Below are positions 50 to 59,739 of a DNA stretch of 64,000 bases, in pieces. Positions within the stretch are counted from its first letter, which is position 1; each line of letters opens with the position of its first letter. The position numbers were made by a program, and so were the translations under genes. Source of the DNA: Maribacter sedimenticola (GTDB lineage: Bacteria > Bacteroidota > Bacteroidia > Flavobacteriales > Flavobacteriaceae); the NCBI RefSeq assembly GCF_900188415.1, contig NZ_FZNV01000005.1:124001-188000 (forward strand), given 5' to 3'. The notes beneath the pieces are model-generated. The model searched no databases, had not been told where the DNA came from, and saw nothing but the letters and a program-made list of their open reading frames with translations.

Positions 50-346
50 TTAAGAAAAGAAAATTGAGAGTTCAAAATCAATAATATAGAGAAAAATAAG
101 TATGAGTACCGCCAAAATTACGGCCATTCTTATTTTAATGTTCCGATCACCCTTTCTTTTGGTATCTTCAAGAGCACTATTGATTTTATTTTTAAGTCCC
201 CTAGAGGTATGTAAGGTACTTCTAAACTGATCGAACTTTGGTTCTATTTTGTAAGGGTTGGCTTTATCCTTGTTATCATAATACCTAGGATTATATTCAA
301 ACTGCCTGTTTTTTCGTAACCTCGTTATTTTACTCAACATCCCCAT
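50..346 (-). CDS. Small basic protein with C-terminal membrane anchor, between ribH and mutL
   Basis: 98 residues. The first ~70 are hydrophilic and rich in Lys, Arg and Asn. Residues ~72-96 form one strongly hydrophobic segment (AVILAVLILIFLYIIDF), so this should be a tail-anchored or C-terminally anchored inner membrane protein. In flavobacteria, orthologues at this position are often mislabelled riboflavin synthase beta subunit because of the neighbouring ribH. Nothing in the sequence supports that enzyme activity. An exact TAnnTTTG element (352-359) ends 5 bases before the ATG, so the message is probably leaderless. It runs directly into mutL. Function unknown. Confidence 0.85.
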   Translation of the reverse strand: MGMLSKITRLRKNRQFEYNPRYYDNKDKANPYKIEPKFDQFRSTLHTSRGLKNKINSALEDTKRKGDRNIKIRMAVILAVLILIFLYIIDFELSIFFS

Positions 347-351
347 AATAC

Positions 352-359
352 CAAAGTTA
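352..359 (-). promoter_or_regulatory. -7 promoter element for the 98-aa gene and mutL
   Basis: Minus-strand TAACTTTG matches TAnnTTTG. Its G is 5 bases before the ATG at 346, so transcription should start at or next to the start codon. Confidence 0.6.
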
Positions 360-470
360 CTTAAAATAGAAAAATAGCACCCTAAAGGAATGCCAAAATT
401 TGTTAACAGCTATATGGACTGTAGAACTAATCTATAATCAGTTAACAAATAAGTAAATAAACAGAAAGCG

Positions 471-953
471 CTAGTTTCCTAGAACAGCCATTTTAATGGC
501 GGCTATGGCAGCCTCAGTACCTTTATTGCCATGTTTTCCACCACTGCGATCAATGGATTGTTGTATGTTATTATCCGTAAGTACACAGAAAATAACGGGT
601 ACATCCATTAAAACATTCAGGTCCTTAATTCCTTGGGCGGTTGCATCACATACGAAATCAAAATGTTTGGTCTCACCCTGTATTACGCTACCTATGGCAA
701 TAACCGCGTCTACTTTTTGCGTTTGGATCATTTTTTTTGCACCAAAGGTAAGTTCAAAACTACCTGGAACATTCCACCGTAAAATATCCGTTTCCGTTAC
801 CCCACAATCTAACAATGCCTCCATGGCACCCGAAAAAAGTCCTTCCGTAATTTGGGAATTCCATTCAGAAACAACAATCCCAAACCGAAGTCCTTTCGCG
901 TTTGGGATTGTTGCTTTATCGTAAACTGATAAATTTTTATTGATCGTAGCCAT
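471..953 (-). CDS. ribH: 6,7-dimethyl-8-ribityllumazine synthase
   Basis: 160 residues, the usual length for RibH, the penultimate enzyme of riboflavin synthesis. It condenses 5-amino-6-ribitylamino-uracil with 3,4-dihydroxy-2-butanone 4-phosphate and assembles into icosahedral or pentameric shells. Visible family motifs are WNSQIT near residue 31 (substrate aromatic contact), the VPGSFE loop (~62-67), the AIGSVIQGETKHFD stretch (~86-99) with the catalytic His, and FCVLT near 122. The start overlaps the stop of the TPR gene by one base (TAATG), so the two are translationally coupled. No FMN riboswitch is visible upstream, because the gene is internal to an operon. Confidence 0.97.
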   Translation of the reverse strand: MATINKNLSVYDKATIPNAKGLRFGIVVSEWNSQITEGLFSGAMEALLDCGVTETDILRWNVPGSFELTFGAKKMIQTQKVDAVIAIGSVIQGETKHFDFVCDATAQGIKDLNVLMDVPVIFCVLTDNNIQQSIDRSGGKHGNKGTEAAIAAIKMAVLGN

Positions 954-1720
954 TATGCACCACTTTTAGCCATTCCTATAAATGCATCGATACTACCGGC
1001 ATTTTCAGATTTTGGATACTCGTCCTTTATTCTTTGGAAAAAGCCCAAAGCTTTGTCCTTATCACCCATTTCAAGAGCGGTAACACCTGCCTTGTAAAGA
1101 AATTTAGGCGTAGTATAATCATTGGTACTGTGGGCCACTGCTGCCTCATAATATCCCAAGGCATCTTCCGGCTGATCTAATTGCATAAAGGCATCACCCA
1201 ATCCGCCTTTGGCAAGTGCCCCCAATATGGCATCATCGGAACTGAAGTTTTCCAAATAATTGATTGCCTCTTGGTATTTGTTCATATTCAAGTAGGACAT
1301 ACCGGCACCATAGTTTGCCAAGTTTGCAGCTTGGGTACCACTATATTCCTCTATAATATCCTTAAAGCCGTACTTACCTTCTGCACCTTCCAAAGCCAAT
1401 GTAAACAATGAATCTTTGGCAGTTGTACTTGTCAACGCCTGATCAAAGTATTGCTGGGGATAATACATTTCGTTAGCCGCACTGGTCTCCTTTGGTTTTA
1501 CCACAAATTGACTATAGGCCAAATATCCCAAAACACTAATTGCAATAACCCCTATAGCACCCAATATATAATTTTGGTTTCTAGAAACCCACTCCTCTGA
1601 CCTTGAAGCCCCTTCGTCCAAGGAACTAAATACTTCTGCGGTAGTACTTTCTTGCTCATCGAATTCTTGCTTTTCAGCCTTTGTTTCAGGTTTGTATCCT
1701 CTTTTCTTATATGTAGCCAT
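953..1720 (-). CDS. Membrane-anchored tetratricopeptide repeat protein
   Basis: 255 residues from the ATG at 1720 (MATYKKRGYKPE). An upstream in-frame start at 1768 is rejected because the -7 element (1741-1748) lies inside that extension. The layout is a charged acidic N-terminus, one membrane segment at ~52-72 (YILGAIGVIAISVLGYLAY), then TPR-like helices in the C-terminal half (ANYGAGMSYLNMNKYQEA; GLGDAFMQLDQPEDALGYYEAA). It resembles YfgM/CpoB-type periplasmic TPR proteins that act as chaperone or envelope scaffolds. It is the first gene of the operon leading into ribH. The exact role is not known. Confidence 0.85.
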   Translation of the reverse strand: MATYKKRGYKPETKAEKQEFDEQESTTAEVFSSLDEGASRSEEWVSRNQNYILGAIGVIAISVLGYLAYSQFVVKPKETSAANEMYYPQQYFDQALTSTTAKDSLFTLALEGAEGKYGFKDIIEEYSGTQAANLANYGAGMSYLNMNKYQEAINYLENFSSDDAILGALAKGGLGDAFMQLDQPEDALGYYEAAVAHSTNDYTTPKFLYKAGVTALEMGDKDKALGFFQRIKDEYPKSENAGSIDAFIGMAKSGA

Positions 1721-1740
1721 CTCTAATTTTATTGGTCGCG

Positions 1741-1748
1741 CAAAAATA
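1741..1748 (-). promoter_or_regulatory. -7 promoter element for TPR-ribH operon
   Basis: Minus-strand TATTTTTG lies 20 bases before the ATG at 1720. It is divergent from the recF promoter at 1785-1792 and fixes the TPR protein start at 1720. Confidence 0.6.
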
Positions 1749-1784
1749 AAGTTTTTATTGAAATCCAATGGTGTATTTATTCGT

Positions 1785-1792
1785 TATTTTTG
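1785..1792 (+). promoter_or_regulatory. -7 promoter element for recF operon
   Basis: TATTTTTG lies 50 bases before the recF ATG and points away from the TPR-ribH promoter. Confidence 0.5.
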
Positions 1793-1842
1793 GATATTAT
1801 AGGGTAGTTATCGCCTAATAAATCCCAAATTCAAGAATTTTA

Positions 1843-2922
1843 ATGTTACTGAGACAATTATCATTAATCAATTATAAAAATTTCGAATCAAAAGAATTAG
1901 TGTTCGATGCTAAGATTAATTGTTTTGTGGGTGATAATGGGGTTGGCAAAACCAATATTCTGGATGCCATTTATCATTTATCCTTTGGTAAGAGTTATTT
2001 TAACCCTGTTTCCTCCCAAAATATAAAACATGGCACCGATTTTTTCGTCATTGACGGATTATTTGAGAAAGACGACCGTGAAGAAAAAATCGTTTGCAGC
2101 TTAAAGAAGAACAATAAAAAAATAATTAAACGTAATGGCAAAGCCTATGACCGTTTTTCCGACCATATTGGTTTTTTGCCTTTGGTCATAATTTCCCCGG
2201 CAGACCGTGACCTCATTGTTGAGGGAAGTGATACGCGCAGGAAATTTATGGACGGGGTCATATCACAATCTGACAAGGGATATCTTCAACACTTGATCAA
2301 TTATAATAAGATATTGTCCCAGCGCAATGCACTCCTAAAGTATTTTGCGGCCAACAGAACCTTCAATAAGGACACATTAGCAGTATATAACGAGCAACTT
2401 GCCGCGTATGGTACCGCTATCTTTGAAAAGAGAACAGCGTTTATAGAAACTTTTATTCCCATCTTTCAGGAGCAGTATAGGGCAATTACCGGTGGCAACG
2501 AACATGTAAGGCTCACCTATAACAGTAAGCTTTTGGATAATGGACTAATTGATCTATTGGAAAAAAACCTGGATAAGGACAGAGCGCTACAATATACGAG
2601 CGTAGGTATACACAAGGACGACCTTAACTTTGAGATCAACGAATATCCTATTAAGAAATTTGGGAGCCAAGGACAACAAAAATCATATTTGATCGCCCTT
2701 AAATTTGCCCAATTTCATTTTATGAAATCGCAAAGTAATACTACCCCGATCTTAATTTTGGATGATATTTTCGATAAATTGGACGAGCATCGTGTTGCAC
2801 ATATTATATCTTTGGTTAACAATGAAAATTTTGGCCAGATCTTTATAAGCGACACCCATGCCGATCGAACGGAGGACGTGGTAAAAAAAATTCATCAGTC
2901 CTATAGAATCTTTAAATTATAA
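1843..2922 (+). CDS. recF: DNA replication and repair protein RecF
   Basis: 359 residues, a typical RecF length. RecF is an SMC-like ATPase that binds ds/ssDNA junctions and, with RecO and RecR, loads RecA at gaps. The Walker A motif GDNGVGKTN is at residues 30-38. The ABC signature FGSQGQQKS is near 275, and Walker [13 protein letters not shown] with the D-loop is near 305. It starts a tight three-gene operon: the next start is 2 bases after its stop. Its own -7 element is at 1785-1792. Confidence 0.97.
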
Positions 2923-2924
2923 AC

Positions 2925-3341
2925 ATGCGTTATATAGCGTTACTAACATTGTTTCTAGCAACTTCCTGCAGCACCGCCGTGGATACCAAGGACCTTCCAA
3001 ACTTAAATGGTTATTGGGAAATTAAGGAAGTACGCTTTACCGATGGCACAAAAAAGGAATATAAGGTTAACAGTATGGTAGATTATATTACGCTAGATAG
3101 CTTAAACGGTTTTCGTAAAAAAGTACAGCCAAAATTTGATGGTTCTTTTGTAACCTCCAATGATGCAGAGCCGTTCAAGATCCTTATACAGAACGATTCC
3201 ATTTTTATGGAATACAATAATGACCTTACCCATTGGCGAGAAGCTTTACTTTCAATTAGCCAAGATTTTTTTTCCGTTAGGAACGAAGAAGGTATTATTT
3301 ATCATTATCAAAGATTTGAACCAATAAACATTACACCATAA
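2925..3341 (+). CDS. Lipocalin-like lipoprotein of unknown function
   Basis: 138 residues. The N-terminus is a lipoprotein signal with lipobox LATSC (Cys15). The mature part begins with an LNGYWEIKEVRF motif and alternating beta strands that resemble lipocalin-like/DUF4488-type small beta-barrels of Bacteroidota. No catalytic residues can be pointed to. It sits between recF and the DUF721 gene. Its stop overlaps the next start by one base (TAATG), so it is translated with them, although the reason for the linkage is unclear. Confidence 0.8.
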   Translation: MRYIALLTLFLATSCSTAVDTKDLPNLNGYWEIKEVRFTDGTKKEYKVNSMVDYITLDSLNGFRKKVQPKFDGSFVTSNDAEPFKILIQNDSIFMEYNNDLTHWREALLSISQDFFSVRNEEGIIYHYQRFEPINITP

Positions 3342-3637: not shown

Positions 3638-3679
3638 AAGATTGTTTGACCTTAAACCATTATCAAATCTTATTAAAAC

Positions 3680-3730: not shown

Positions 3731-4150
3731 TTAGTAAATTTCCCTTCCTGAAAAGTGAAATGCACCTTCTATTGCTGCATTTTCATCACTATCAGAACCA
3801 TGGACCGCATTTTCTGCAATATCCGTAGCGAACAGTTTACGAATGGTACCCTCTGCTGCCTCCGCAGGATTGGTTGCACCTATCAATGCCCTAAAATCTT
3901 CCACTGCATTTTCTTTCTCCAAAATGGCGGCAACAATTGGTCCTCTGGTCATAAATTCAACCAATTCACCAAAGAAAGGACGCTCTCTATGTATACCATA
4001 AAATTCTTGCGCATCCCTTAAGCTAAGTTGCGTATATTTCATGGCCACTATTTTAAATCCAGAAGCGGTAATCTTTTCCAATATAGCCCCTATATGTCCA
4101 TTTTCAACGGCATCTGGCTTAATCATAGTAAATGTTCTATTCGTACTCAT
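3731..4150 (-). CDS. ndk: Nucleoside diphosphate kinase
   Basis: 139 residues, typical for Ndk. The enzyme transfers the gamma phosphate of ATP to NDPs through a phospho-histidine. The active-site motif NAVHGSDS is intact with His117. The N-terminal [10 protein letters not shown] motif and the RGP loop (residues 69-71) are also present. It is a single gene facing the recF operon across a bidirectional terminator. A TATTTTTG element at 4166-4173 lies 15 bases before the start. Confidence 0.98.
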
Positions 4151-4165
4151 ATCTTAATTTTTGCG

Positions 4166-4173
4166 CAAAAATA
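4166..4173 (-). promoter_or_regulatory. -7 promoter element for ndk
   Basis: Minus-strand TATTTTTG, 15 bases before the ndk ATG. Confidence 0.6.
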
Positions 4174-5287: not shown

Positions 5288-5295
5288 TATCTTTG
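5288..5295 (+). promoter_or_regulatory. -7 promoter element for nrnA-gldI-PPIase operon
   Basis: TATCTTTG ends 5 bases before the ATG at 5301, which predicts a leaderless transcript. Confidence 0.65.
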
Positions 5296-5300
5296 CCGCC

Positions 5301-6317
5301 ATGAATTTAGAGCACCTAAACGCGCTTAAACAGTTACTTTCCACACCAAGGAAAATTGCGATTATACCCCATAAAAATCCGGATGGTGATGCCATAGGTT
5401 CAACCTTGGCGCTCTGGCATTATGCAATTAATAAAGGTCATAATGCCAGTATCGTTTCACCTAACGATGCTCCAAAATTTTTAAAATGGATGCCCGGAGC
5501 GGATAAAATCCTAAATTTTGAAAAACAGAATACCCAAGCCAAATCATGTATTGGAGCGGCAGACGTAATCTTCACATTGGATTTCAACCACTTGGGACGT
5601 GTTGGGCAAATGAGCGAACTATTGGAAGAATCATCCGCTACATTCGTAATGGTTGACCACCATCAAGAACCATCGGATTATGCAAAAATCATGTATTCCG
5701 ATGTAACCATGAGCTCCACTTGTGAAATGGTATATCATCTTATAGGACTATTGGGCGACGTAAATCAAATTACTAAAGAAATGGCCAATTGCATCTATAC
5801 CGGTATCATGACCGATACCGGGTCGTTTAAATTTGCTGCAACTACAAGTAATACGCATAGGGTGGTCGCAGATTTAATGGACAGAGGTGCAGAAGGTACA
5901 GAAATTCACCATCGTATTTACGACACCAATTCACCCAGTAGATTACATTTACTAGGATGTGCCTTAAAAAACATGGTCATTTTGGAAGAGTACCATACCG
6001 CTTATATCACCTTAAGCCAAGAAGAGTTGGATAAGTACAACTATCAAAAAGGAGACACCGAAGGTTTTGTAAACTATGGGTTAACCTTGGACGGCATTAA
6101 TTTTGCCGTAATTTTTATTGAAAACAAGGAGGAAGGCATATTGAAAATATCTTTTAGGTCGGTAGGTGATTTTTCCGTGAACGATTTTGCAAGAAAACAC
6201 TTTAATGGCGGCGGCCATACCAATGCCGCTGGAGGAAAGAGTGAAGATTCCATTGAAGATACTATCAAATATTTTACTTCGTTATTACCACAATACCAGA
6301 ATCAATTACAGTCATGA
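5301..6317 (+). CDS. nrnA: DHH/DHHA1 phosphoesterase, NrnA-type oligoribonuclease/pAp phosphatase
   Basis: 338 residues. The N-terminal DHH domain carries PHKNPDGDAIG (residues 23-33), the DFNHLGR motif and the VDHHQEP signature. The C-terminal DHHA1 domain has the GGGHTNAAGG glycine-rich substrate loop. NrnA proteins degrade 2-5 nt RNAs and dephosphorylate pAp, replacing Orn. The gene starts an operon with gldI and a cyclophilin-FKBP gene; its stop overlaps the gldI start (ATGA). Promoter spacing suggests a leaderless message. Confidence 0.92.
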   Translation: MNLEHLNALKQLLSTPRKIAIIPHKNPDGDAIGSTLALWHYAINKGHNASIVSPNDAPKFLKWMPGADKILNFEKQNTQAKSCIGAADVIFTLDFNHLGRVGQMSELLEESSATFVMVDHHQEPSDYAKIMYSDVTMSSTCEMVYHLIGLLGDVNQITKEMANCIYTGIMTDTGSFKFAATTSNTHRVVADLMDRGAEGTEIHHRIYDTNSPSRLHLLGCALKNMVILEEYHTAYITLSQEELDKYNYQKGDTEGFVNYGLTLDGINFAVIFIENKEEGILKISFRSVGDFSVNDFARKHFNGGGHTNAAGGKSEDSIEDTIKYFTSLLPQYQNQLQS

Positions 6318-9147: not shown

Positions 9148-10593
9148 CTATGGGGTACGCCGTAAGATTTCCTGTAAAAATTTCCAAAACTTCTGAACCG
9201 AACCAATATGAACACGTTCATCTGGGGAATGCGCCCCTAAAATGGTAGGCCCAAAACTAATCATATCAATCTCTGGGTAATTCTGTCCTAAAATACCACA
9301 TTCCAAACCTGCATGGCAGGCTACCACCCTAGGCTCATGCTGAAATAAATTGGTATATGTCTCTTTTGCTATAGCCAATATGCGTGAATTTGGATTAGGG
9401 TTCCAACCAGGGTAGGAACCACTGTAAGCTACTTCAAAACCAGCCAATTCAAAAACCGAACGCAAGGAATTTGCCAAATCCAATTTAGCGGAATCCACAG
9501 ATGAACGCGTTAAACAGCCCACCAAGATTTCACCATCCTTGACCATTACCTTGGCTATGTTATTGGAAGTTTCCACCAATCCTTCTATTGTGGCACTCAT
9601 AGCATAAACTCCATTGGTTGCTCCATATAATGCTTTTATCAATTTTCCCTGCGCACCAAGGCCCATGACCATTTTGGCCGGCTTAACTTCTGCAAGGGAT
9701 ATTTCCAATTCAGGTTCCTGGGCAAGTAACTCGTTTTTGATTGCTTTTGAAATTTCATTGAATTTTGCAGTAAAGTCGCCAACAGACTTTTTACCAATAT
9801 TTAAAATACACGTACTTTCCCTTGGTATTGCATTACGTAAACTTCCTCCTTCTAAATATGCAATACGCATATTATAAGGTAAACCTACGTACAATAGGCG
9901 GTTCATAATTTTATTGGCATTGCCCAACCCCTTTACTATATCCATTCCACTATGTCCACCCTTAAGGCCTTTAACAGAAATTTGATAGCCAATATCACCG
10001 TGCACACTAGATTTTTGATTGTAGTTTCTGGTGGCCGTAACATCTATACCTCCGGCACAACCAATATCTATCTCATCATCTTCTTCCGTATCAAGGTTTA
10101 AAAGAATTTCACCTTTTAGGACACCACCTTTTAATCCAAAAGCTCCGGTCATTCCCGTTTCCTCATCTATGGTAAATAAGGCTTCCAAAGCCGGATGTTC
10201 AATAGTATTGCTCTCCAGTAAGGCCATTATAGCGGCAACGCCCATTCCATTATCCGCTCCTAGTGTGGTTCCCTTGGCTTTTACCCATTCTTGGTCAATG
10301 AACATTTCTATACCTTGGGTTTCAAAATTAAATTGGGTATCGGTATTTTTCTGATGCACCATATCCAAATGGCTTTGTAGGGTAACCATTTTCCTATTCT
10401 CAAATCCCAAAGTAGCGGGTTTTCTAATAATCACGTTACCAATTTCATCTGAGAAGGTTTCCAGCCCCAATTGTTTGCCAAAATCTATCATAAAGGCAAT
10501 GACCTGTTCCTCTTTTTTGGAAGCTCTGGGCACCGCATTCAGATTTGCAAAATTTCTCCAGACGGATTTTGGTTCCAATTGATCAATATTCAT
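9148..10593 (-). CDS. pepD: Aminoacyl-histidine dipeptidase (M20C)
   Basis: 481 residues, typical PepD length. It is a cytosolic metallo-dipeptidase that splits Xaa-His and other dipeptides. Metal and catalytic motifs are TLQSHLDMVHQ near 87, the GADNGMG aspartate near 118, DEETGMTGAFGL near 150 and HAGLECGIL near 428. The dimerisation (lid) domain lies between. There is no signal peptide. It is convergent with the GH5 gene and divergent from DUF3810, with a TATTTTTG element (10619-10626) 25 bases upstream. Confidence 0.95.
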   Translation of the reverse strand: MNIDQLEPKSVWRNFANLNAVPRASKKEEQVIAFMIDFGKQLGLETFSDEIGNVIIRKPATLGFENRKMVTLQSHLDMVHQKNTDTQFNFETQGIEMFIDQEWVKAKGTTLGADNGMGVAAIMALLESNTIEHPALEALFTIDEETGMTGAFGLKGGVLKGEILLNLDTEEDDEIDIGCAGGIDVTATRNYNQKSSVHGDIGYQISVKGLKGGHSGMDIVKGLGNANKIMNRLLYVGLPYNMRIAYLEGGSLRNAIPRESTCILNIGKKSVGDFTAKFNEISKAIKNELLAQEPELEISLAEVKPAKMVMGLGAQGKLIKALYGATNGVYAMSATIEGLVETSNNIAKVMVKDGEILVGCLTRSSVDSAKLDLANSLRSVFELAGFEVAYSGSYPGWNPNPNSRILAIAKETYTNLFQHEPRVVACHAGLECGILGQNYPEIDMISFGPTILGAHSPDERVHIGSVQKFWKFLQEILRRTP

Positions 10594-10618
10594 ATTATTT
10601 GTTCATAGTTAGTGATGG

Positions 10619-10626
10619 CAAAAATA
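10619..10626 (-). promoter_or_regulatory. -7 promoter element for pepD
   Basis: Minus-strand TATTTTTG, 25 bases before the ATG. Divergent from the DUF3810 element at 10648-10655. Confidence 0.6.
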
Positions 10627-10647: not shown

Positions 10648-10655
10648 TATTTTTG
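10648..10655 (+). promoter_or_regulatory. -7 promoter element for DUF3810 gene
   Basis: TATTTTTG ends 5 bases before the ATG at 10661, which predicts a leaderless transcript. Each of the two divergent elements lies in the other's upstream region. Confidence 0.62.
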
Positions 10656-10660
10656 AATCA

Positions 10661-11728
10661 ATGAAGATATCGTTTAAAGATGCAGTAGCCATTTCGCTTA
10701 TCCCCCAAATAATCATAATAAAATGGTTAGGGAAACACACACAATGGATAGAGATATATTACAGTAAAGGTATATATCCGTTTGTTTCCAAAATCTTCAG
10801 GACCCTATTTGGTTGGATACCTTTTTCCGTTGGCGACATTATTTATTTTGCCTTAATTTTTAGTGCCCTCTATTATTTAATCCGATACTTTTCCCATATC
10901 AAAACACACAAACTTGCATTTTTAAGAGATGTGGCCATGGTACTTTCTATTGCGTATTTTACCTTTCATTTAATGTGGGGACTAAATTATTACAGGGAAC
11001 CCTTGTCTACATCCTTAAATTTGACCGAAACCAAGGATTACCAACAGTTGGTCACTTTTACCCAGCAATTAATAGAAAAAACCAACCAAGCACAGATCAA
11101 CATTACCAAAGACTCAACAATAGCGGTAAATGTACCCTATACCCATAAGCAAATGTTTGAAAAAACCTTGGAAGGTTATGAAAATTTGGCAACCCTTCAC
11201 CCTTTCTTAAACTATACGACGCCCAGCATTAAAACATCCTTGTTCAGTACCGGGCTGACCTATATGGGCTATGCAGGATACCTAAACCCTTTCACCAATG
11301 AGGCACAAGTTAACCGCCTTCTGCCCAATTTTAGGTTTCCTATTGTTGCCGGTCACGAAATAGGACATCAATTGGGATACTCTGCTGAAAACGAGACCAA
11401 TTTTATAGGATACTTGGTCACGGCCAAAAATAAAGACCCCTATTTTCAATATGCGGCTTATGCATATGCACTAGGATATTGCTTAAACGATGTTAGGCGC
11501 GGAGACATTGAAGTGTTCAATGAATTACTGTTAGGACTAAACCCAGGCGTAAAAACTAATTTTCAGGAGATGGCGGTTTTTTGGAACTCCTATGAAAACC
11601 CGCTGGAGCCAATGTTTAAATCTGTATTCAACACATTTCTAAAAGCCAATAATCAGTCACAAGGCATAAAGAGTTACAATGCTGTGGTAGCTTTATTGAT
11701 TGCGTATCATAAAGAGCATCCGTTATAG
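10661..11728 (+). CDS. DUF3810 membrane protein with zincin-like HExxH motif
   Basis: 355 residues. There are probably three N-terminal membrane segments (~10-25, ~55-75, ~90-110). A soluble domain then carries AGHEIGHQLGYSAENETNFIGYL near 230-250. HEIGH matches the HExxH zinc-protease motif, and the following Glu residues (ENETN) can supply the third ligand as in gluzincins. DUF3810 is a Bacteroidota family without an assigned role. A membrane metallopeptidase is the natural inference. It is a single gene with its own promoter. Confidence 0.85.
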   Translation: MKISFKDAVAISLIPQIIIIKWLGKHTQWIEIYYSKGIYPFVSKIFRTLFGWIPFSVGDIIYFALIFSALYYLIRYFSHIKTHKLAFLRDVAMVLSIAYFTFHLMWGLNYYREPLSTSLNLTETKDYQQLVTFTQQLIEKTNQAQINITKDSTIAVNVPYTHKQMFEKTLEGYENLATLHPFLNYTTPSIKTSLFSTGLTYMGYAGYLNPFTNEAQVNRLLPNFRFPIVAGHEIGHQLGYSAENETNFIGYLVTAKNKDPYFQYAAYAYALGYCLNDVRRGDIEVFNELLLGLNPGVKTNFQEMAVFWNSYENPLEPMFKSVFNTFLKANNQSQGIKSYNAVVALLIAYHKEHPL

Positions 11729-22272: not shown

Positions 22273-22514
22273 TAGCCCCCGCTTACTGGTGGTATTATTG
22301 CAATTTCATCATTGCCGCTCAAAGTTACATCATCATTGGCATATTCACTATTAACGGCCACGGCAAGGGTCTTTAATTTTAAGAACTCCGGATAATTCTT
22401 AATCAAATCCTTTTTTAACGCGGCAACCGTTGCCGGCTTGGCCTCCTCATCAGAAAACAAGATTTCCGAACTACCAACAATATCCTTGGCTATTCCAAAA
22501 AACAATACGTTCAT
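22272..22514 (-). CDS. moaD: Molybdopterin synthase sulfur carrier subunit
   Basis: 80 residues from the ATG at 22514. A TTG three codons upstream at 22523 is rejected because it overlaps the -7 element. MoaD is a ubiquitin-like protein whose C-terminal Gly-Gly is adenylated by MoeB and then carries the thiocarboxylate. The C-terminus IPPVSGG is intact. It is the first gene of the cofactor operon, isolated from the upstream gene by a terminator (22557-22580). Promoter spacing of 6 bases suggests a leaderless message. Confidence 0.94.
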   Translation of the reverse strand: MNVLFFGIAKDIVGSSEILFSDEEAKPATVAALKKDLIKNYPEFLKLKTLAVAVNSEYANDDVTLSGNDEIAIIPPVSGG

Positions 22515-22520
22515 CTGCTT

Positions 22521-22528
22521 CAAAATTA
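22521..22528 (-). promoter_or_regulatory. -7 promoter element for the molybdenum cofactor operon
   Basis: Minus-strand TAATTTTG, 6 bases before the moaD ATG. Confidence 0.62.
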
Positions 22529-23473: not shown

Positions 23474-23481
23474 TACTTTTG
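23474..23481 (+). promoter_or_regulatory. -7 promoter element for trmH-type gene
   Basis: TACTTTTG ends 6 bases before the ATG at 23488. It overlaps an alternative TTG start at 23479, which is therefore unlikely. Confidence 0.62.
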
Positions 23482-23487
23482 TACCTA

Positions 23488-24300
23488 ATGCACGAACATA
23501 AACATATAAGTAGCGCCCAAAACCCTTTAATCAAAAAGGCTGTTTTATTAAAGGATAAGGCTAGGGAACGCAAAAAGACAGGACTCTTTTTATTAGAGGG
23601 ACTGCGTGAATTGAGCATTGCCATTAAGGCCGAATATGAAATTACGACCATTTTTTATTGTGCTGATATTTTTGAGAACAGCGATGGCAATAGCCTTTTA
23701 AAAGATTTTCCTGAAAATAAAATAATTTCCGTTAGTCATGAAATCTATAAAAAACTAGCTTATAGAGATACTACAGAAGGTATTTTGGCCATTGCAAAAG
23801 GAAAAGACCATACTTTGTCCACTTTAGCGTTCAACAAACCCAATCCGCTTATCCTTGTTGCTGAGGCCCCTGAAAAACCAGGAAATATAGGTGCGTTGTT
23901 AAGAACGGCAGATGCTGCCAATTTAGACGCCGTTTTTATTGCAAACCCAAAAACGGACCTGTATAATCCCAACATTATACGATCAAGCGTTGGATGTGTA
24001 TTTTCAAGGACAATCAAGACAGGGAGCACACAAGAAATTATTTCCTATTTACAACAGGAACGGTTTGGCATTTTCTGTGCCGCATTGACCGCATCAAAAG
24101 AATACACCTCAATAAACTATACTGGCCCTACAGCTATAGTGGTCGGCACCGAACATGATGGACTTAGCAAGGAATGGCTTTCCAATTCAACTCAAAATAT
24201 TATAATACCAATGGAAGGAGAAATAGACTCCATGAACGTTTCGGTATCAGCGGCAATACTTATCTTTGAGGTCAAAAGACAACAAAAACTTGGGCGTTAA
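23488..24300 (+). CDS. SpoU/TrmH-family RNA 2'-O-methyltransferase
   Basis: 270 residues from the ATG at 23488. The N-terminal substrate-binding domain (~1-100) is followed by the SPOUT domain. SAM-binding knot motifs are AEAPEKPGNIGALLRTADAA (motif 1, near 132), VVGTEHDGLSKEWL (motif 2, near 215) and IPMEGEIDSMNVSVSAAIL (motif 3, near 236). It methylates a ribose in rRNA or tRNA; RlmB-like 23S activity is possible but the target is not determined. It leads a run with an M48 protease and relA. Confidence 0.92.
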   Translation: MHEHKHISSAQNPLIKKAVLLKDKARERKKTGLFLLEGLRELSIAIKAEYEITTIFYCADIFENSDGNSLLKDFPENKIISVSHEIYKKLAYRDTTEGILAIAKGKDHTLSTLAFNKPNPLILVAEAPEKPGNIGALLRTADAANLDAVFIANPKTDLYNPNIIRSSVGCVFSRTIKTGSTQEIISYLQQERFGIFCAALTASKEYTSINYTGPTAIVVGTEHDGLSKEWLSNSTQNIIIPMEGEIDSMNVSVSAAILIFEVKRQQKLGR

Positions 24301-36360: not shown

Positions 36361-38061
36361 TTGAAAACTATCGGTTTATTCGCCCTATTACTTTTGGCAT
36401 TTGCAAATCATGGTCTAGCCCAAAATAGAGCGGATCAAGAAGAAGCCAAACAAATTAATATTGTTCATGGGGCCAATTTCACAAAGAACGAAGTAGACTA
36501 TCCCGGAGCTTCAATATTCAGCAAAGATGAACGACAGGTACAATTTGAACATCAAGGTGCAGACCTTTGGTGCGATGTAGCCATTTATTACCAACTTGAG
36601 AACCGCTTGGAAGCCATTGGCAATGTAATTCTGAAACAAGGGGACTCGGTTCAAATGACCAGTAAAAAAATCAATTACCTAGGGGACGATAAATTGGCAA
36701 AAGCATGGGGCAACGTCATTTTAAAAAATGCCTCCATGACCTTAAAAACGGACACCCTGAGATTTGACAGGGAAAAACAAGAGGCCTTTTATCGTGACAA
36801 TGGTACTGTAATTGATTCGGCAAATACGTTGACCAGCAAGATTGGCAAATACTTCATGGAATTGAAAAAGTATCAATTTTTGGATAGCGTACATGTTCAA
36901 AATCCAGAATACACCTTAGATTCCGAACAGTTGGATTATTACACTACCTCTAAAAATGCATACATGTACGGCCCCTCGACAATTGTAGGGGAAGCCTATA
37001 AAATTTACTGTGAACGTGGATTTTACGATACCAAAATAGAAAGCGGTTATGGTATTAAAAATACACGTATAGATTATAATAATAGAATAATTGAAGGGGA
37101 TAGCGTTTATTTTAACAAAGCCAATGAATTTGCATCTGCTACCAATAATATTACCGTAACGGATACCATTAACAAGGGTATCATAAGGGCACATTATGCA
37201 GAGGTACATAAAGCAAAAGACTCTGTATTTGCCACCAGAAGAGCGGTATCTATTTCAGTACAGCAACAAGACTCGCTCTATGTACATGGAGACACTTTGA
37301 TGGTTACCGGCAAACCTGAAGAACGCTTGCTCAGGGCATTTAGAAATGCCAAATTCTATAAGACAGATTTGAGCGGTAAGTGCGATAGCATACACTCGGA
37401 GCAAAAGACAGGTATCACCCAATTGATCAAGAATCCGGTTATATGGAACGGTGCCAATCAAATGACAGGAGATAGCATCCATTTAAAATCCAATCTAAAA
37501 ACTGAAAAACTAGATTCCTTAAAAGTATTAAGAAATGCCTTTATAATTTCTTTGGATAGTGTTAGCATGACTGGTTATAACCAGGCAAAGGGCATTAACC
37601 TATTTGGCAAGTTCATAGAAAACGAATTAAAATTAATTGACCTGGTACAAAATACGGAGGTGGTCTACTACATGTATAACGATGACGATGAACTTATTGG
37701 GATAGATAAAACGGTATGTAGCAAGATTAGGATAACCATGGAAGAGAACGATATAGAAAACCTTACTTTTTTTACGGATCCTGATGGTGATATATTTCCC
37801 GAAAAGGACCTGCCCGAAAATAGCAGGATATTAAAAGGATTTGTGTGGCGGGGCGATGAGCGTATTTTGACCAAGGAGGATATTTTTGACGAGGACGACA
37901 ATAATTTGGAACTGGTGGTCATTCAAGGAATAGACAATCCTATTGACATAGATGCAGAAGAACAGCAGCGCGGTCAAAATGAGTCTGACCCCGTTAATAA
38001 GATCAAAACGGACAATGCCATAGACCCAAAAGCAAAGGCAACCAAAAAGAAGGTGAATTAA
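36361..38061 (+). CDS. OstA/LptA-like LPS transport protein
   Basis: 566 residues starting at a TTG codon. No in-frame ATG exists in the signal peptide MKTIGLFALLLLAFANHGLAQ, and the promoter is just upstream. Extended OstA-type beta-jellyroll repeats fill the protein: GNVILKQGDSVQMTSKKINY, GNVILKNASMTLKTDTLRF, and later blocks near 160-330. LptA-like proteins bridge lipopolysaccharide across the periplasm. Bacteroidota versions are much longer than the ~180-residue E. coli LptA. The C-terminus is charged and low in complexity. An aminotransferase gene follows after 9 bases. Confidence 0.85.
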   Translation: MKTIGLFALLLLAFANHGLAQNRADQEEAKQINIVHGANFTKNEVDYPGASIFSKDERQVQFEHQGADLWCDVAIYYQLENRLEAIGNVILKQGDSVQMTSKKINYLGDDKLAKAWGNVILKNASMTLKTDTLRFDREKQEAFYRDNGTVIDSANTLTSKIGKYFMELKKYQFLDSVHVQNPEYTLDSEQLDYYTTSKNAYMYGPSTIVGEAYKIYCERGFYDTKIESGYGIKNTRIDYNNRIIEGDSVYFNKANEFASATNNITVTDTINKGIIRAHYAEVHKAKDSVFATRRAVSISVQQQDSLYVHGDTLMVTGKPEERLLRAFRNAKFYKTDLSGKCDSIHSEQKTGITQLIKNPVIWNGANQMTGDSIHLKSNLKTEKLDSLKVLRNAFIISLDSVSMTGYNQAKGINLFGKFIENELKLIDLVQNTEVVYYMYNDDDELIGIDKTVCSKIRITMEENDIENLTFFTDPDGDIFPEKDLPENSRILKGFVWRGDERILTKEDIFDEDDNNLELVVIQGIDNPIDIDAEEQQRGQNESDPVNKIKTDNAIDPKAKATKKKVN

Positions 38062-53443: not shown

Positions 53444-54592
53444 CTAACTTTCTATTATATCCTTGAGCACCTTAATGGTGTAATCAATTTCCTCCCTCGT
53501 GTTATAGGTAGAAAATGAAAAACGCACAGATGGTTTTTTCATGTCTTCCTTGGACAAAATTTGGGTAAGGACATGACTACCGGTATCGCTCCCTGATTGA
53601 CATGCACTTCCTTTTGAACACGCTATACCTTTAATATCCAAGTTGAACAAAAGCATCATAGCCTTATCTTCCGTAATGGGCAAACAAACGTTCACCAACG
53701 TATAGGTGCTTTTTTCCATATCTGCGGAATGTCCGTTAAATTTGGCTTCCGGTATATCCTTTCTTACCTGTTCTATAAAATACCTCTTAAGTCCTTCAAC
53801 ATATTTCTTTTCCGTTTCCAAATTATCATAGGCGTGCACAAACGCTTCTTGGAGACCAACAATATTATGGAAAGACTCCGTACCTGCCCTGAGCCCACGT
53901 TCTTGAGACCCTCCGGATATCATACAGCTCATACCTGAATTTTTTCGGATAAAAGCAAAACCAATACCTTTAGGCCCATGAAATTTATGAGCTGCTGCAG
54001 CTAGAAAATCTATTGGAAACTTTTTTACATCCCATTCATAATGACCTAAAGATTGAACAGTATCGGAATGTACCAAGGCATCGTATTTTTTGGATAATAA
54101 GGTAATCTGTTCCAAATCTATTTTATTGCCTATTTCGTTGTTCACATGCATAAGGCTTACCAATTTTTTAGAACCATTGCTTTTCAATAGTTCTTCCAAA
54201 TGCAACAAATCAGGATTGCCATAAGCGTCCAAATTAACATATTGCAATTCTATAAGACCTTTTGCTTCCAGTTCCTCTACCGTATGTAGTACTGCATGAT
54301 GTTCTATTCTAGTAGTGATTATAGTCTTTACCCCTAGATCACGCACCGCACATCTTAATATCATGTTATCCGCCTCAGTACCTCCACTGGTAAAAATAAT
54401 TTCAGAGGGCTGTGCATTAATATATTTGGCAATTGTCTTTCTTGCACTTTCTATGGCCGTTTTCGCTGTTCTGCCAAAACTATGTGTAGAAGAAGGATTT
54501 CCGTAGGAATTAGCCAATGCATCCTGCATTTTTGAAATTACCTTAGGGTGAACCTGTGTTGTTGCCGCATTATCTAAATATACCTGTTTCAT
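53444..54592 (-). CDS. Cysteine desulfurase (NifS/IscS family)
   Basis: 382 residues from the ATG at 54592. The TTG one codon upstream is less likely. It is a PLP enzyme that removes sulfur from cysteine for Fe-S clusters and thio-cofactors. Visible are YLDNAATTQVHP at the N-terminus, SGGTEADNM near 70, the Schiff-base lysine in AAHKFHGPKGIGF near 203 and the catalytic loop CSKGSACQSGSDTGSHVL near 325-342. A -7 element (54619-54626) lies 26 bases upstream. It may also feed the rhodanese of the cofactor operon, but that is inference. Confidence 0.94.
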   Translation of the reverse strand: MKQVYLDNAATTQVHPKVISKMQDALANSYGNPSSTHSFGRTAKTAIESARKTIAKYINAQPSEIIFTSGGTEADNMILRCAVRDLGVKTIITTRIEHHAVLHTVEELEAKGLIELQYVNLDAYGNPDLLHLEELLKSNGSKKLVSLMHVNNEIGNKIDLEQITLLSKKYDALVHSDTVQSLGHYEWDVKKFPIDFLAAAAHKFHGPKGIGFAFIRKNSGMSCMISGGSQERGLRAGTESFHNIVGLQEAFVHAYDNLETEKKYVEGLKRYFIEQVRKDIPEAKFNGHSADMEKSTYTLVNVCLPITEDKAMMLLFNLDIKGIACSKGSACQSGSDTGSHVLTQILSKEDMKKPSVRFSFSTYNTREEIDYTIKVLKDIIES

Positions 54593-54692: not shown

Positions 54693-54700
54693 TAAATTTG
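54693..54700 (+). promoter_or_regulatory. -7 promoter element for lipoprotein gene at 54705
   Basis: TAAATTTG ends 4 bases before the ATG at 54705, which predicts a leaderless transcript. Confidence 0.6.
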
Positions 54701-54704
54701 ATGT

Positions 54705-55208
54705 ATGAAAAAATACCTACTAATTGGTTGTTTATTTTTATTGTTTGCCTGTGACGATGGCGACCTTCAAATAGAAACGGTGGACTTTGATAGCATAGAC
54801 AATGTCCAAAATTGTGGAACGTTATCCACATCTTCTACCAACGTGGTTTTTAAGATCAATGGTGACGAGTCCTTGATCATTACCTTGGCTAGCGGACTCC
54901 TAAAAAATGAAGTAACCACGACGGATAGGGAAAGTGCAGTTCCCGGAAACTCACAAGTAAGCTATCGTATATTTTCTGAAACCGTAACCAGTGCCTATTT
55001 TTGTGATGCACCACCACCACTTACACCAACGGTCATTGAAGAAATTGAGGCTGAAGGCGGCTCTGTTACCGTTAGTACTACAACGGCGGATAGCGTAACC
55101 TTTACGCACACTATCAAGCTAAGTGGCATTACATTTGTCAATGAAAACGGAAGTAGAATTACGGATCTGCAGATTAATGAGTTTGGTGAAGTAACTACTG
55201 GAGGATAA
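54705..55208 (+). CDS. Lipoprotein of unknown function
   Basis: 167 residues with a lipoprotein signal (FLLFACDD, Cys16) and Asp/Glu residues right after the Cys, as is common for exported Bacteroidota lipoproteins. The mature part is beta-rich and Thr/Ser-rich, with one Cys at NCGTLS near 37 and one at YFCDAPPPL near 103 that could form a disulfide. No known domain is recognised. Its promoter is 4 bases upstream. Its stop lies one base from that of the convergent Smr gene. Confidence 0.72.
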   Translation: MKKYLLIGCLFLLFACDDGDLQIETVDFDSIDNVQNCGTLSTSSTNVVFKINGDESLIITLASGLLKNEVTTTDRESAVPGNSQVSYRIFSETVTSAYFCDAPPPLTPTVIEEIEAEGGSVTVSTTTADSVTFTHTIKLSGITFVNENGSRITDLQINEFGEVTTGG

Positions 55209-56131: not shown

Positions 56132-56470
56132 ATGGAACAACAAAAATTACCTAATGTAACATTGATATTAGTGCTCGGCATAGCTTCAATCATTCTATGC
56201 TGGTGTTATGGTATTTTAGGGCTAATTCTTAGTATCATTGGTTTGGTACTTGCACTTAATACTACCAAGCTCTATAATGCAAATCCAAATGATTACACTA
56301 ATTACTCCGCCCTTAAAACGGCAAAGCTGGTTACCATCATAGGTCTGGTACTGAACATTTTATTTTTACTGTTCATGATTTGGTTTATTATGTGGATCGG
56401 TTGGGATGTAATCATGAGTCAAGATCAAGAGCTTATACAGGAGCGAATGAACGAATTATTAAATCAATAA
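56132..56470 (+). CDS. CCC-motif (CD225/dispanin-like) membrane protein, copy 1
   Basis: 112 residues with two long hydrophobic segments: ~9-43 (with a CWCYG at 23-27) and ~65-96. Between them lies a soluble loop NTTKLYNANPNDYTNYSALKTAK. Its order, a Cys-rich first helix with Gly, a short loop ending in DY and a basic turn, then a second helix, matches the dispanin (CD225) pattern by eye. The gene belongs to the DUF2752 cluster. The second copy starts 2 bases after its stop. Function unknown. Confidence 0.78.
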   Translation: MEQQKLPNVTLILVLGIASIILCWCYGILGLILSIIGLVLALNTTKLYNANPNDYTNYSALKTAKLVTIIGLVLNILFLLFMIWFIMWIGWDVIMSQDQELIQERMNELLNQ

Positions 56471-56472
56471 TA

Positions 56473-56772
56473 ATGGAAGAAAAAATTCCAGGTTCCAGTA
56501 ATGCATTAACATTTGGCATTCTATCTATAGTATTGACCCTTTTCTGTTGTGGGCCTTTTGGTGCAATTTTTAGTTTCATAGGTTTGAACTATGCTAAAAA
56601 AGCAAAAGCTTTCCATGAAGCCAATCCGGGCAATTATAGTGGTTATGATAACATACAGACCGGTAGAGTGCTCTCTTATATAGGCCTGGCCCTTTCAGTT
56701 ATATTATTAATACTTACCATTATTTATTTTGGATTGATCATTGCGTTTTTTGCTACGGCAGATTTCCAATAA
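56473..56772 (+). CDS. CCC-motif (CD225/dispanin-like) membrane protein, copy 2
   Basis: 99 residues from the ATG at 56473; a longer upstream frame overlapping copy 1 is not credible. The first helix (~11-37) carries FCCGPFG (Cys25, 26). The loop AKKAKAFHEANPGNYSGYDN and second helix (~64-95) follow. It is a paralogue of copy 1 and matches the CD225 pattern more closely (CC-x-P-x-G, then a DY/NY loop). It ends the operon at a very strong palindromic terminator. Confidence 0.8.
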   Translation: MEEKIPGSSNALTFGILSIVLTLFCCGPFGAIFSFIGLNYAKKAKAFHEANPGNYSGYDNIQTGRVLSYIGLALSVILLILTIIYFGLIIAFFATADFQ

Positions 56773-56788
56773 CCAATAGTAAGCAAAG

Positions 56789-56818
56789 AAAAATCCCCGA
56801 ACATGTTCGGGGATTTTT
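56789..56818. terminator. Bidirectional terminator, perfect 30-base palindrome
   Basis: AAAAATCCCCGAACA and its exact complement are adjacent with no spacer, flanked by T-runs. The rocD stop codon begins on the next base (56819). Confidence 0.93.
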
Positions 56819-58099
56819 TTATTGTTTAAATGTTTGCAAGGTTCTTATGATAATGGACACACAGTCCAACAACTCTGCTTTTGTCATAACCAAAGGTGGT
56901 GCAAAACGAATTATGTTACCGTGTGTTGGTTTAGCAAGAAGACCGTTTTCCTTTAATGCCATACAAATATCCCATGCAGTGGAACTTTCTTCTGTATCGT
57001 TGATAAGAATTGCATTTAAAAGTCCCTTGCCCCTAACACTTTTCACAAGGTCACAAGTAGGAATAAACTCATTGAGTTCTTTCCTGAAAATTTCACCTAG
57101 AACATAAGCGTTTTCAGCAAGTTTTTCTTCTTTGACAACACCTAGGGCCGCCATACCTACGGCCGCGGCAATTGGGTTACCTCCAAAGGTACTTCCGTGA
57201 TTGCCTGGGCGAATTACATTCATGATGGCATCATTGGCCAAAACGGCAGAAACTGGGTATGCACCACCGGATAATGCCTTTCCTAAGATTAATATATCCG
57301 GTTTTACTTCTGGTTCTCCGCTACAATGTTTGTCCACACAAGAGCAATTACCGCATGTGGCAAGTAAACGACCCGTACGGGCAATACCTGTCTGTACTTC
57401 ATCTGCAATGAACAATACGTTATATTTTTCACATAATGCCTTAGCACCTTTTAAATAACCTTCAGATGGCACATAAACCCCAGCTTCACCTTGAATTGGT
57501 TCAACCAAGAACCCAGCTACATTTTCATTGGTTTTCAAGGCCTCTTCCAGAGCCATTAAATTATCGTATTCTATTTTAATGAATCCGTCCGTATACGGGC
57601 CAAAATTCTTACGAGCCACCGGGTCATTTGAAAAGGAGATGATTGTTGTGGTACGACCATGAAAATTATTTTCACAAACAATGATTTCCGCAGCATTTTC
57701 TGCTATACCCTTTTTTTCATAAGCCCATTTCCTACATATTTTCAATGCGGTCTCAACAGCCTCTGCCCCCGTATTCATTGGTAAGAGCTTGTCAAAATGA
57801 AAAGTCTCCGTTGCATACTTTTCATATTTCCCCAACATATCATTATAAAACGCCCTAGAGGTCAAGGATAGCGTTTTAGCCTGATCAACCATTGCATTAA
57901 CTATTGTTGGGTGACAATGCCCTTGGTTAACGGCAGAATAGGCCGAAAGAAAATCATAATACTTTTTTCCTTCCACATCCCAAACGAAAACACCTTCACC
58001 CCTGCTTAAAACAACAGGCAATGGGTGATAATTATGGGCTCCGTGTTTTTCTTCCAAGGCAATTGCATCCTTAGAAGTAATCTTTTCTAAAACTGACAT
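56819..58099 (-). CDS. rocD: Ornithine--oxo-acid aminotransferase
   Basis: 426 residues, class III PLP aminotransferase converting ornithine to glutamate semialdehyde. Landmarks are [15 protein letters not shown] near 50, [17 protein letters not shown] near 108-124, the ENNFHGRT motif near 145, [16 protein letters not shown] near 228-243 and the PLP lysine in [15 protein letters not shown] near 272. Between the last two is a Cys-rich insert ([11 protein letters not shown]) absent from classic OATs. A -7 element at 58203-58210 would give an unusually long (~100-base) leader. It shares a terminator with the CCC cluster. Confidence 0.95.
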
Positions 58100-58150
58100 G
58101 ATAAAATTACTTTAAATAAAACTTTAGCAATTCCTTCTATACCTTTTTCC

Positions 58151-58166
58151 TTTCGAAGAGTCGAAA
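58151..58166 (-). promoter_or_regulatory. Hairpin in the rocD leader
   Basis: The inverted repeat TTTCGA - 4 bases - TCGAAA lies within the ~100-base leader between the predicted promoter and the rocD start. No following T-run is seen. Apart from this and the promoter elements, the 218-base gap 58100-58317 holds nothing I recognise. Confidence 0.3.
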
Positions 58167-58202
58167 ATTCAGCGTAGGAGAGAAATCATCCCTGTAGAAT
58201 TC

Positions 58203-58210
58203 CAAAAATA
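58203..58210 (-). promoter_or_regulatory. -7 promoter element, likely rocD
   Basis: Minus-strand TATTTTTG, 103 bases before the rocD ATG; no closer exact match is seen. Confidence 0.4.
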
Positions 58211-58305
58211 CAAATTAATGCTGTCATAATAAATAATACCGTCCAACGTATTTAATTACTTGTTAATACTATCAATAACAGTATTCGCAATCCAAAGAAA
58301 CCTTT

Positions 58306-58313
58306 TATTTTTG
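58306..58313 (+). promoter_or_regulatory. -7 promoter element for rlmD
   Basis: TATTTTTG ends 4 bases before the ATG at 58318, which predicts a leaderless transcript. Confidence 0.65.
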
Positions 58314-58317
58314 CGCT

Positions 58318-59739
58318 ATGCGAAAAAAGACAAAGCGACTGGTTTTTGAAAAGGTTACGGTCCTAGATGCGGCAGCCAAGGGTAAAACCATAGGAAAAGC
58401 TCCGGATGGAAGGGTAATCTTTTTAACCAATACCGTACCGGGTGATGTGGTTGATGTACAGACCACAAAAAAAAGAAAAGCATATTTTGAAGGTGTGGCG
58501 ACCAATTTTCATACCCTATCGAAAAAAAGGGTTGATCCGGTCTGCCAACATTTTGGTGTATGTGGAGGATGCAAGTGGCAAGATATGGGTTATGAGCACC
58601 AACTTTTTTATAAACAAAAAGAGGTTGAGAATAACTTAAAAAGAATAGGCCATATTGAGCTACCGGAAGTAACACCGATCTTAGGATCAAAAGAACAATA
58701 TTTCTATAGGAATAAAATGGAATTTTCATTTTCCGATAGTCGTTGGCTTACCTTGAACGAAATTCAGTCCGATCAACAGATAGAAGATAGAAACGCTTTA
58801 GGTTTTCATATTCCAGGAATGTGGGATAAAATTTTGGATATAAAAAAATGTCATTTACAACGTGACCCTTCCAATGCCATACGCTTACAGACCAAAAAAT
58901 TTGCTGCGGTAAATGGCCTCACCTTTTTTAATCCAAGAAACCAACATGGTCTTTTACGAACATTAATGATCCGTACCACCTCTATTGGTGAAGTAATGGT
59001 AATGGTACAATTTTTTGAGGATGATAAAGAGAAAAGAGAATTGTTGCTAAACCATCTTACTAAAACATTTCCAGAGATAACATCCTTGTTATATGTTATC
59101 AACCCAAAACAGAACGACACCATTTATGATCAAGAAATTATTTGTTTTTCGGGTAGAGACCATATTTTAGAAGAAATGGAAGGGTTGAAGTTTAAGATAA
59201 ACGCCAAATCTTTTTACCAAACCAATTCTGAACAGGCCTATGAATTATATAAAATCACAAGAAATTTTGCAGATTTAAAAGGTGATGAATTGGTATATGA
59301 TTTATATACAGGCACAGGAACCATTGCTCAGTTCGTTTCTAAAAAAGCTAAAAAGGTAGTTGGAATTGAATCTGTACCTGAAGCAATTTTAGATGCCAAG
59401 GCAAATGCAGAGCGAAACAATATTGAAAACGTGGATTTCTTTGTTGGAGATATGAAAAATGTATTCAACGAACAATTTATAGCTCAAAACGGTGTGCCAG
59501 ATGTAATCATCACTGATCCCCCACGAGATGGTATGCATAAAGACGTTGTTCAACAAATCTTGAATATTGCACCTAACAAAGTGGTTTATGTAAGTTGTAA
59601 CAGTGCCACGCAAGCCAGGGATTTGGAACTTATGAAAGATATGTACAAGGTTACCAAGGTGCAGCCAGTAGATATGTTTCCACAAACCCACCATGTAGAA
59701 AATGTTGTACTTTTAGAAAAGAAAGAATTAGATGAGTAG
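58318..59739 (+). CDS. rlmD: 23S rRNA (uracil-5-)-methyltransferase RlmD-type
   Basis: 473 residues. The N-terminal TRAM beta-barrel is at ~5-70 (GKTIGKAPDGRVIFL; VPGDVVDVQ). The Fe4S4 cysteines sit in CQHFGVCGGCKWQ near 77-89 with CHLQ near 180. The methyltransferase domain (~270-470) has the SAM motif VYDLYTGTGTIAQF near 325 and ends with the catalytic Cys in VYVSCNSATQARDL near 427. It methylates a specific uridine in 23S rRNA (U1939 or U747 in E. coli numbering). Its stop overlaps the DUF6452 start by 8 bases. Confidence 0.93.
   Translation: MRKKTKRLVFEKVTVLDAAAKGKTIGKAPDGRVIFLTNTVPGDVVDVQTTKKRKAYFEGVATNFHTLSKKRVDPVCQHFGVCGGCKWQDMGYEHQLFYKQKEVENNLKRIGHIELPEVTPILGSKEQYFYRNKMEFSFSDSRWLTLNEIQSDQQIEDRNALGFHIPGMWDKILDIKKCHLQRDPSNAIRLQTKKFAAVNGLTFFNPRNQHGLLRTLMIRTTSIGEVMVMVQFFEDDKEKRELLLNHLTKTFPEITSLLYVINPKQNDTIYDQEIICFSGRDHILEEMEGLKFKINAKSFYQTNSEQAYELYKITRNFADLKGDELVYDLYTGTGTIAQFVSKKAKKVVGIESVPEAILDAKANAERNNIENVDFFVGDMKNVFNEQFIAQNGVPDVIITDPPRDGMHKDVVQQILNIAPNKVVYVSCNSATQARDLELMKDMYKVTKVQPVDMFPQTHHVENVVLLEKKELDE

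Follow-up and report, generated by a model that had tools for sequence, protein, structure and literature searches.

Do some bacterial promoters place the transcription start at the start codon itself, and can this be read from DNA? The question is raised by a stretch of 64,000 nucleotides (nt) from Maribacter sedimenticola, positions 124,001–188,000 of contig NZ_FZNV01000005.1 (hereafter the window; the source genome is 4.27 Mb), in which seven genes carry the promoter motif TAnnTTTG almost directly before their ATG. We use "short class" for genes with 4–6 bases from the G of this motif to the ATG and "leadered" for genes with a longer spacing; all distances below are counted in this way. As described below, the spacing, composition and conservation of these elements make it very probable that the short class consists of sigma-A promoters starting transcription at the AUG or 0–2 nt before it.

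All seven TAnnTTTG-N4-6-ATG arrangements that an earlier note had reported are present, with spacers of 5, 5, 5, 6, 6, 4 and 4 nt. The promoter of a gene for a 98-amino-acid (98-aa) protein (344..359, minus strand) has its −7 element TAACTTTG at 359–352, followed by a 5-nt spacer and the ATG at 346–344. An nrnA-like DHH/DHHA1 gene (5288..5303, plus strand) has TATCTTTG at 5288–5295, also 5 nt before its ATG at 5301, and the DUF3810 gene (10648..10663, plus strand) has TATTTTTG at 10648–10655, 5 nt before the ATG at 10661. Spacers of 6 nt separate TAATTTTG (22521–22528) from the ATG at 22514 in the moaD/ThiS-family gene (22512..22528, minus strand), the weak member of the set, and TACTTTTG (23474–23481) from the ATG at 23488 in the SpoU/TrmH-type (MRM3-like) methyltransferase gene (23474..23490, plus strand). 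The remaining two spacers are of 4 nt. They belong to a 167-aa gene, labelled a lipoprotein in the earlier note (54693..54707, plus strand; TAAATTTG at 54693–54700, ATG at 54705), and to the rlmD-type 23S rRNA methyltransferase gene (58306..58320, plus strand; TATTTTTG at 58306–58313, ATG at 58318). Pfam matches back the gene names: DHH/DHHA1 for the nrnA-like gene, tRNA_U5-meth_tr plus a weak TRAM for the rlmD-type gene, SpoU with an MRM3-like domain, DUF3810, and ThiS for the moaD-like gene. Pfam gave no family match for the 98-aa protein (53–346, minus strand) or the 167-aa protein (54705–55205, plus strand). Each of these two was matched in 19 of 31 genomes; outside the genus, those genomes held one weak match to the 98-aa protein and none to the 167-aa protein.

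All seven elements fit TAHHTTTG, the revised form of the −7 element TANNTTTG of the sigma-ABfr promoter. Another trait of sigma-ABfr promoters, an A+T-rich stretch centred near −18, is present as well: six bases before the first T of the element, A+T is at 93% in 42 short-class elements and at 87% in 199 leadered ones. The number of TAnnTTTG copies in the window, 96, is close to that in shuffled sequence (89.2, standard deviation 9.8), so the signal lies in its position and not in its number. A pattern search of the source genome gave 406 matches, compared with 279 for the reversed pattern. A gene caller blind to promoters called 56 genes in the window, including six of the seven short-class genes; the 98-aa gene was missed. 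Among these 56 genes, none of three control motifs occurred at 4–6 bases. With 1, 0 and 2 such cases among the 891 genes of a further contig, these counts make the earlier estimate of about 0.1 short-class cases by chance a fair one.

The earlier note had also placed no gene of the window between its two spacing groups, and indeed no called start has an element at 7–13 bases. Elements do occur 8 and 11 bases before an ATG, but those ATGs are internal to longer genes or open reading frames. Three more starts, absent from the earlier list, have an element at 47–55 bases.

The same two classes were found outside the window. Genes were called there without regard to promoters, by a hexamer model and the longest ATG start. 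The sets were C10, a contig making up 28% of the same genome (891 genes); G007, a genome of the same genus (248 genes); G020, from another family of the order (337 genes); and the flanks of 80 public rlmD loci (1244 genes in 550 families, counted as family-distance pairs, without those gene starts that lay 70 bases or less from the end of a locus). TAnnTTTG occurred at 4–6, 7–12 and 13–27 bases in 16, 8 and 83 cases in C10, 12, 3 and 29 in G007, and 12, 3 and 40 in G020. For TAHHTTTG, the counts were 15/7/74, 11/3/26 and 10/3/34 in the same order, and 17/11/120 family-distance pairs in the public flanks (14/11/119 without rlmD itself). Two other modes of calling starts left the shape of the histogram unchanged in C10, G007 and G020. 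Pooled without rlmD, the density per position was 16.7 at 4–6, 4.0 at 7–12 and 16.9 at 13–27. Under a uniform null, the excess at 4–6 over 7–12 had p = 2e-9 and the deficit at 7–12 against 13–27 had p = 3e-16. The excess at 4–6 was seen in each set alone (C10, p = 0.0009; G007, 0.0007; G020, 0.0016; public flanks without rlmD, 0.016). Control motifs at 4–6 numbered at most 2 in C10, G007 and G020, and 0–3 per set with the public flanks included. The earlier note had named a smooth distribution of distances as counting against its claim; in C10, G007, G020 and the public flanks the distribution is two-class.

The position of the short-class ATG coincides with a signal in the leadered promoters. 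We compared 199 leadered elements with 42 short-class genes, 36 of them outside the window and six inside. Among the former, the frequency of A peaks at 54% on the fifth base after the element, behind a spacer of 4 nt. In the short class, the ATG comes right after 4 nt in 25 of 42 genes, after 5 in 13 and after 6 in 4. An A peak of this kind is expected of a start site, and most short-class ATGs sit at exactly that distance. Base composition points the same way. GC content in the 4 nt that follow the element is 47% for the short class (79/168) and 40% for leadered promoters (318/796; p = 0.10). In leadered genes, the 4 nt directly preceding the ATG have 26% GC (206/796), which differs from the short-class spacer (p = 1.4e-7). 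Short-class spacers therefore resemble a promoter discriminator, unlike a transcribed leader. Start codons were also unevenly used: elements stood 4–6 bases before 39 of 2061 candidate ATGs, 0 of 244 GTGs and 2 of 827 TTGs. Preference for AUG is a known trait of leaderless initiation.

In six of the seven genes, element and spacing are conserved within the genus. The counts include the source genome itself and leave aside the partial or broken DUF3810 loci L208, L209 and L215, the duplicate rlmD locus L160, and L159, which has no alignable rlmD. A 5-nt spacing is kept at nrnA in 19/19 loci and at DUF3810 in 16 of the 17 loci with an intact 5′ end, the remaining one being at 6. The 4-nt spacing is found in 18/19 loci for rlmD and 16/19 for the 167-aa gene, and the 6-nt spacing of the trmH-type gene in 17/18. 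The 98-aa gene has the element in all 18 loci, 16 at 5, one at 6 and one at 4. Spacer length is stable while the letters vary, with 2–16 distinct spacers per gene and the maximum in the trmH-type gene (16 among its 18 loci). Beyond the genus, in loci of other families, the element precedes rlmD in 5/10 and stands at 5 before nrnA in 3/11, plus one at 7.

A survey of public rlmD loci, the best 80 of at least 586 confirmed and many from metagenome-assembled genomes, gave an element at 4–6 in 67/80 (59 at 4, 8 at 5 or 6), including loci of Flavobacterium, Aquimarina, Lutibacter, Myroides and Moheibacter. Of these 80, two loci labelled Chryseobacterium, those of Parabacteroides, Azobacteroides and Paludibacteraceae, and four others showed no such element; a further four had no readable ATG. 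For the window RlmD, the matches listed include identities of 82% to Pricia and Allomuricauda and 81% to Cellulophaga and Arenibacter.

Several results weigh against leaderless starts and have to be set beside these. The gap is not empty: 24 elements lie at 7–12 in the pooled sets. Controls at that distance number 0–7 per set, and part of this count is background; in C10, where the bin holds 8 of 163 elements and controls give 3, 7 and 1, the gap comes close to background. In-frame codons near gene starts that are not start codons also have elements at 4–6 (ATT 12/2012, ATA 11/1681, CTG 2/278). The predicted loss of A at −3 is a weak trend (14/42 short-class genes vs 89/198 leadered; p = 0.18). 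The spacing of moaD is not conserved, the element being found in 2/18 same-genus loci, at 6 in the source genome and at 7 in the other. Outside the genus, the 167-aa family is mostly leadered: of its 30 members in the flanks, 13 have the element at 13–40 and 3 have it at 4. Finally, two of five leadered control genes are as fixed as the short class, TPR at 20 in 14/14 loci and Smr at 18 in 16/17 (range 17–18), so kept spacing alone is not diagnostic.

Three other explanations were weighed. The copies of TAnnTTTG could be real promoters of genes whose true start codon lies downstream of the assumed ATG, giving ordinary leaders. A start codon cannot be proven from sequence, and in the 98-aa gene another in-frame ATG follows 6 nt after the first; this second ATG is absent in L268, L269 and L272. 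When codons 2–12 were compared within the genus, third positions were the most changed in all six conserved genes, which fits the assumed ATG being the real start. The pattern is clear in rlmD (change counts 14/18/55), the trmH-type gene (42/37/91), DUF3810 (47/19/103) and the 98-aa gene (26/4/45); the small margins in nrnA (41/10/55) and the 167-aa gene (73/45/84) count among the points against. With the ATG also keeping its place after the element in the 67 public rlmD loci, we consider downstream starts unlikely.

Transcription might instead come from a promoter further upstream; the element at the ATG would then be either a weak secondary promoter or a match by chance. The 16 of 18 moaD loci without an element at 3–7 would suit this, and promoters of alternative sigma factors lay outside the search made. 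Chance matches at this rate are not what the controls predict, about 0–0.13 short-class cases when scaled to the window, and element and spacing are kept while the flanking DNA diverges; we give this explanation a lower probability still. The third alternative concerns the gap alone, which could arise solely from avoidance of ATG in or just after the melted region of the promoter, with no leaderless translation. It leaves unexplained the peak at 4–5, the preference for ATG over GTG and TTG, and the match with the A peak, and of the three we find it the least probable.

Leaderless transcripts thus account best for the first group of the earlier note, on the strength of the two-class spacing, the A peak of leadered genes and the conservation of six genes. 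In all probability these six have a leader of 0–2 nt. For moaD, with its element in so few loci, the chances of such a leader are about even. The two genes with 6-base spacers, the trmH-type gene and moaD, may carry a leader of 1–2 nt.

We propose the following mechanism. Ordinary primary-sigma promoters of the sigma-ABfr type would have their −7 element TAHHTTTG 4–6 nt before the start codon. The first base copied by RNA polymerase would be the A of the AUG, or one lying 1–2 nt before it, and the mRNA would be leaderless. The ribosome could recognise the 5′-terminal AUG directly, and a Shine-Dalgarno sequence or leader signal would be unnecessary; to our knowledge, Bacteroidota are a phylum without Shine-Dalgarno sequences. 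Genes would fall into a leaderless class and a leadered class, the latter with leaders from about 9 nt upwards, as selection would act against leaders in the range of about 2–8 nt. Such leaders presumably neither present a 5′-terminal AUG nor fill the mRNA channel of the 30S subunit. More tentatively, and we think this doubtful, leaderless initiation may be an old and actively kept expression class of Flavobacteriales, with a forbidden zone of about 2–8 nt. A core set (rlmD, nrnA, the SpoU/TrmH-type methyltransferase and others), in which enzymes of RNA modification and nucleic-acid housekeeping may be abundant, would then be held leaderless so that its translation answers the state of the ribosome in another way than that of leadered mRNAs.

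Leaderless mRNAs in Bacteroidota are already published, at about 4–6% (PMC9723704, PMC7366714); what is new here is how deep the gap is, how the spacing is conserved and which genes belong to the class. We compared our results with the accessible parts of four reports. Leaderless messages make up 5.5% of mapped mRNAs in Flavobacterium psychrophilum (PMC9723704). About 3.7% of 5′ untranslated regions are shorter than 10 nt in Bacteroides thetaiotaomicron (PMC7366714). In F. johnsoniae, 87% of transcripts with a probable promoter have leaders of more than 10 nt, leaving at most 13% leaderless (PMC6847099). These species share the phylum and the −7 element with the genes described here. The distance from element to expected start site agrees as well: 241 of 434 candidate −7 elements in F. 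johnsoniae lie 4–5 nt before the start site predicted by RNA sequencing, and the −33 TTTG element is much less evident there (PMC6847099). As far as these parts go, such reports give totals, with transposases, sensor kinases and transporters as examples in B. thetaiotaomicron (PMC7366714); neither a conserved set like rlmD/nrnA nor a spacing gap appears in them. Zheng et al. (2011) predicted TA-led (leaderless) genes by the same logic, from a promoter element some 10–12 nt upstream of the start codon; the model they used was geared to the Pribnow box TANNNT, and the element here is TAHHTTTG (PMC3160421). Of 37 Bacteroidetes/Chlorobi genomes, one was found to have such genes (2.4% of genes); the authors, in the text accessible, allowed for an underestimate in Bacteroidetes but thought high percentages unlikely (PMC3160421). 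Among titles and abstract openings, mainly of open-access literature, we found no report on Bacteroidota that deals with a gap in spacing or with leaderless genes conserved as a set.

In the sources as accessible, then, the leaderless genes of this Shine-Dalgarno-free phylum have been counted and hardly named. A promoter-distance rule reads them from sequence alone. Orthologues predicted to be leaderless across many genera offer test cases for how Bacteroidota ribosomes act at a 5′-terminal AUG, and for whether the leaderless state serves regulation.

The nine comparison genes, said to have 14–26 bases, do so, the LptA/OstA-like gene only if its start is the TTG at 36361 (element at 14). The ndk promoter (4148..4173, minus strand) has a distance of 15 nt. 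That of the M20 peptidase gene pepD (10591..10626, minus strand), divergent from DUF3810, has 25 nt. The distance is 20 bases in the TPR protein gene, 18 in fur, 24 in a 96-aa protein gene (earlier labelled coiled-coil), 26 in the aminotransferase V (cysteine desulfurase) gene (53447–54592, minus strand), 18 in the Smr gene and 20 in the THUMP gene. Five of the leadered genes served as the controls above; hits below 50% identity, hits starting past residue 8 and identical upstream stretches were dropped, and five genes of the window were left out because none of the fetched flanks held an orthologue. Besides the fixed TPR and Smr, distances drifted in ndk (15–29), the M20 peptidase gene (18–26, at 18, 19, 25 or 26) and the cysteine desulfurase gene (25–30). 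We rejected compact divergent promoters as the main cause of the short class: a divergent upstream neighbour is somewhat commoner there (26/42 short-class vs 88/198 leadered genes; p = 0.043), but intergenic length shows no difference (p = 0.46).

Several families vary between genomes. In seven of 17 same-genus relatives (L217, L219–L223 and L226), moaD has TAATTTTA or TAACTTTA 7 bases before the ATG, and locus L225 has TAATTTTG at 7. The moaD promoter has either decayed in relatives or been gained in this species. In L296, a Leeuwenhoekiella gene near rlmD encodes a protein 56% identical to the SpoU/TrmH-type protein (window 23488–24297) and has an element at a distance of 5 from the ATG, so leaderless members of this family may exist outside the genus as well. 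The aminotransferase V/cysteine desulfurase family switches class in the flanks of L274–L353 (e.g. L305), with 6/28 members at 4–5 and 9/28 at 13–40, and forms a natural leaderless/leadered contrast. In loci L048, L157, L179 and L209 of genome G010, several genes are split or contain stops, as would be seen in an assembly with many errors.

Short-class genes on C10, G007 and G020, some named from Pfam matches, include tsaB, tadA, SpoU/rlmB-like, mnmE, tsaD, TatD, RarA-like, RecQ, holB-like and CvfB-like genes. The CvfB-like S1-domain genes are short-class in two families (L096:908–1738 in G007 and L124:15848–16681 in G020). Pfam was run on 33 of the 40 short-class genes of these sets, leaving out one gene spanning two stretches and six more (four orthologous to window genes). 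The comparison set was 40 of the 64 leadered C10 genes, with four among the first 44 omitted. An enrichment of RNA-modification enzymes among the annotated short-class genes was noticed post hoc. With RNA-modification genes taken from an E. coli list, the short class held 4 of 13 reciprocal-best orthologues and none of 41 other genes drawn from those E. coli regions (p = 0.002; 0.06 when short is set against leadered alone), in the same DNA that had suggested the enrichment. In two fresh families, short-class spacing was found in 0/29 miaA loci and 0/29 mnmG loci with a readable start (30 fetched for each); for miaA, elements stood at 7 and 9 in one locus each. For a third family, mnmA, the search gave no loci. 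These two families do not support the enrichment, which is a lead only.

The fetched mnmG loci have another sequence in common. In 19 of 30 loci (L405, L407–L410, L412–L415, L417–L421, L423, L425, L426, L428 and L429, of which L413 is the source genome), the perfect palindrome TGTTCCACGTGGAACA is found no more than about 35 bases ahead of the mnmG start, and near variants occur in L411 and L424. This palindrome resembles a parS site.

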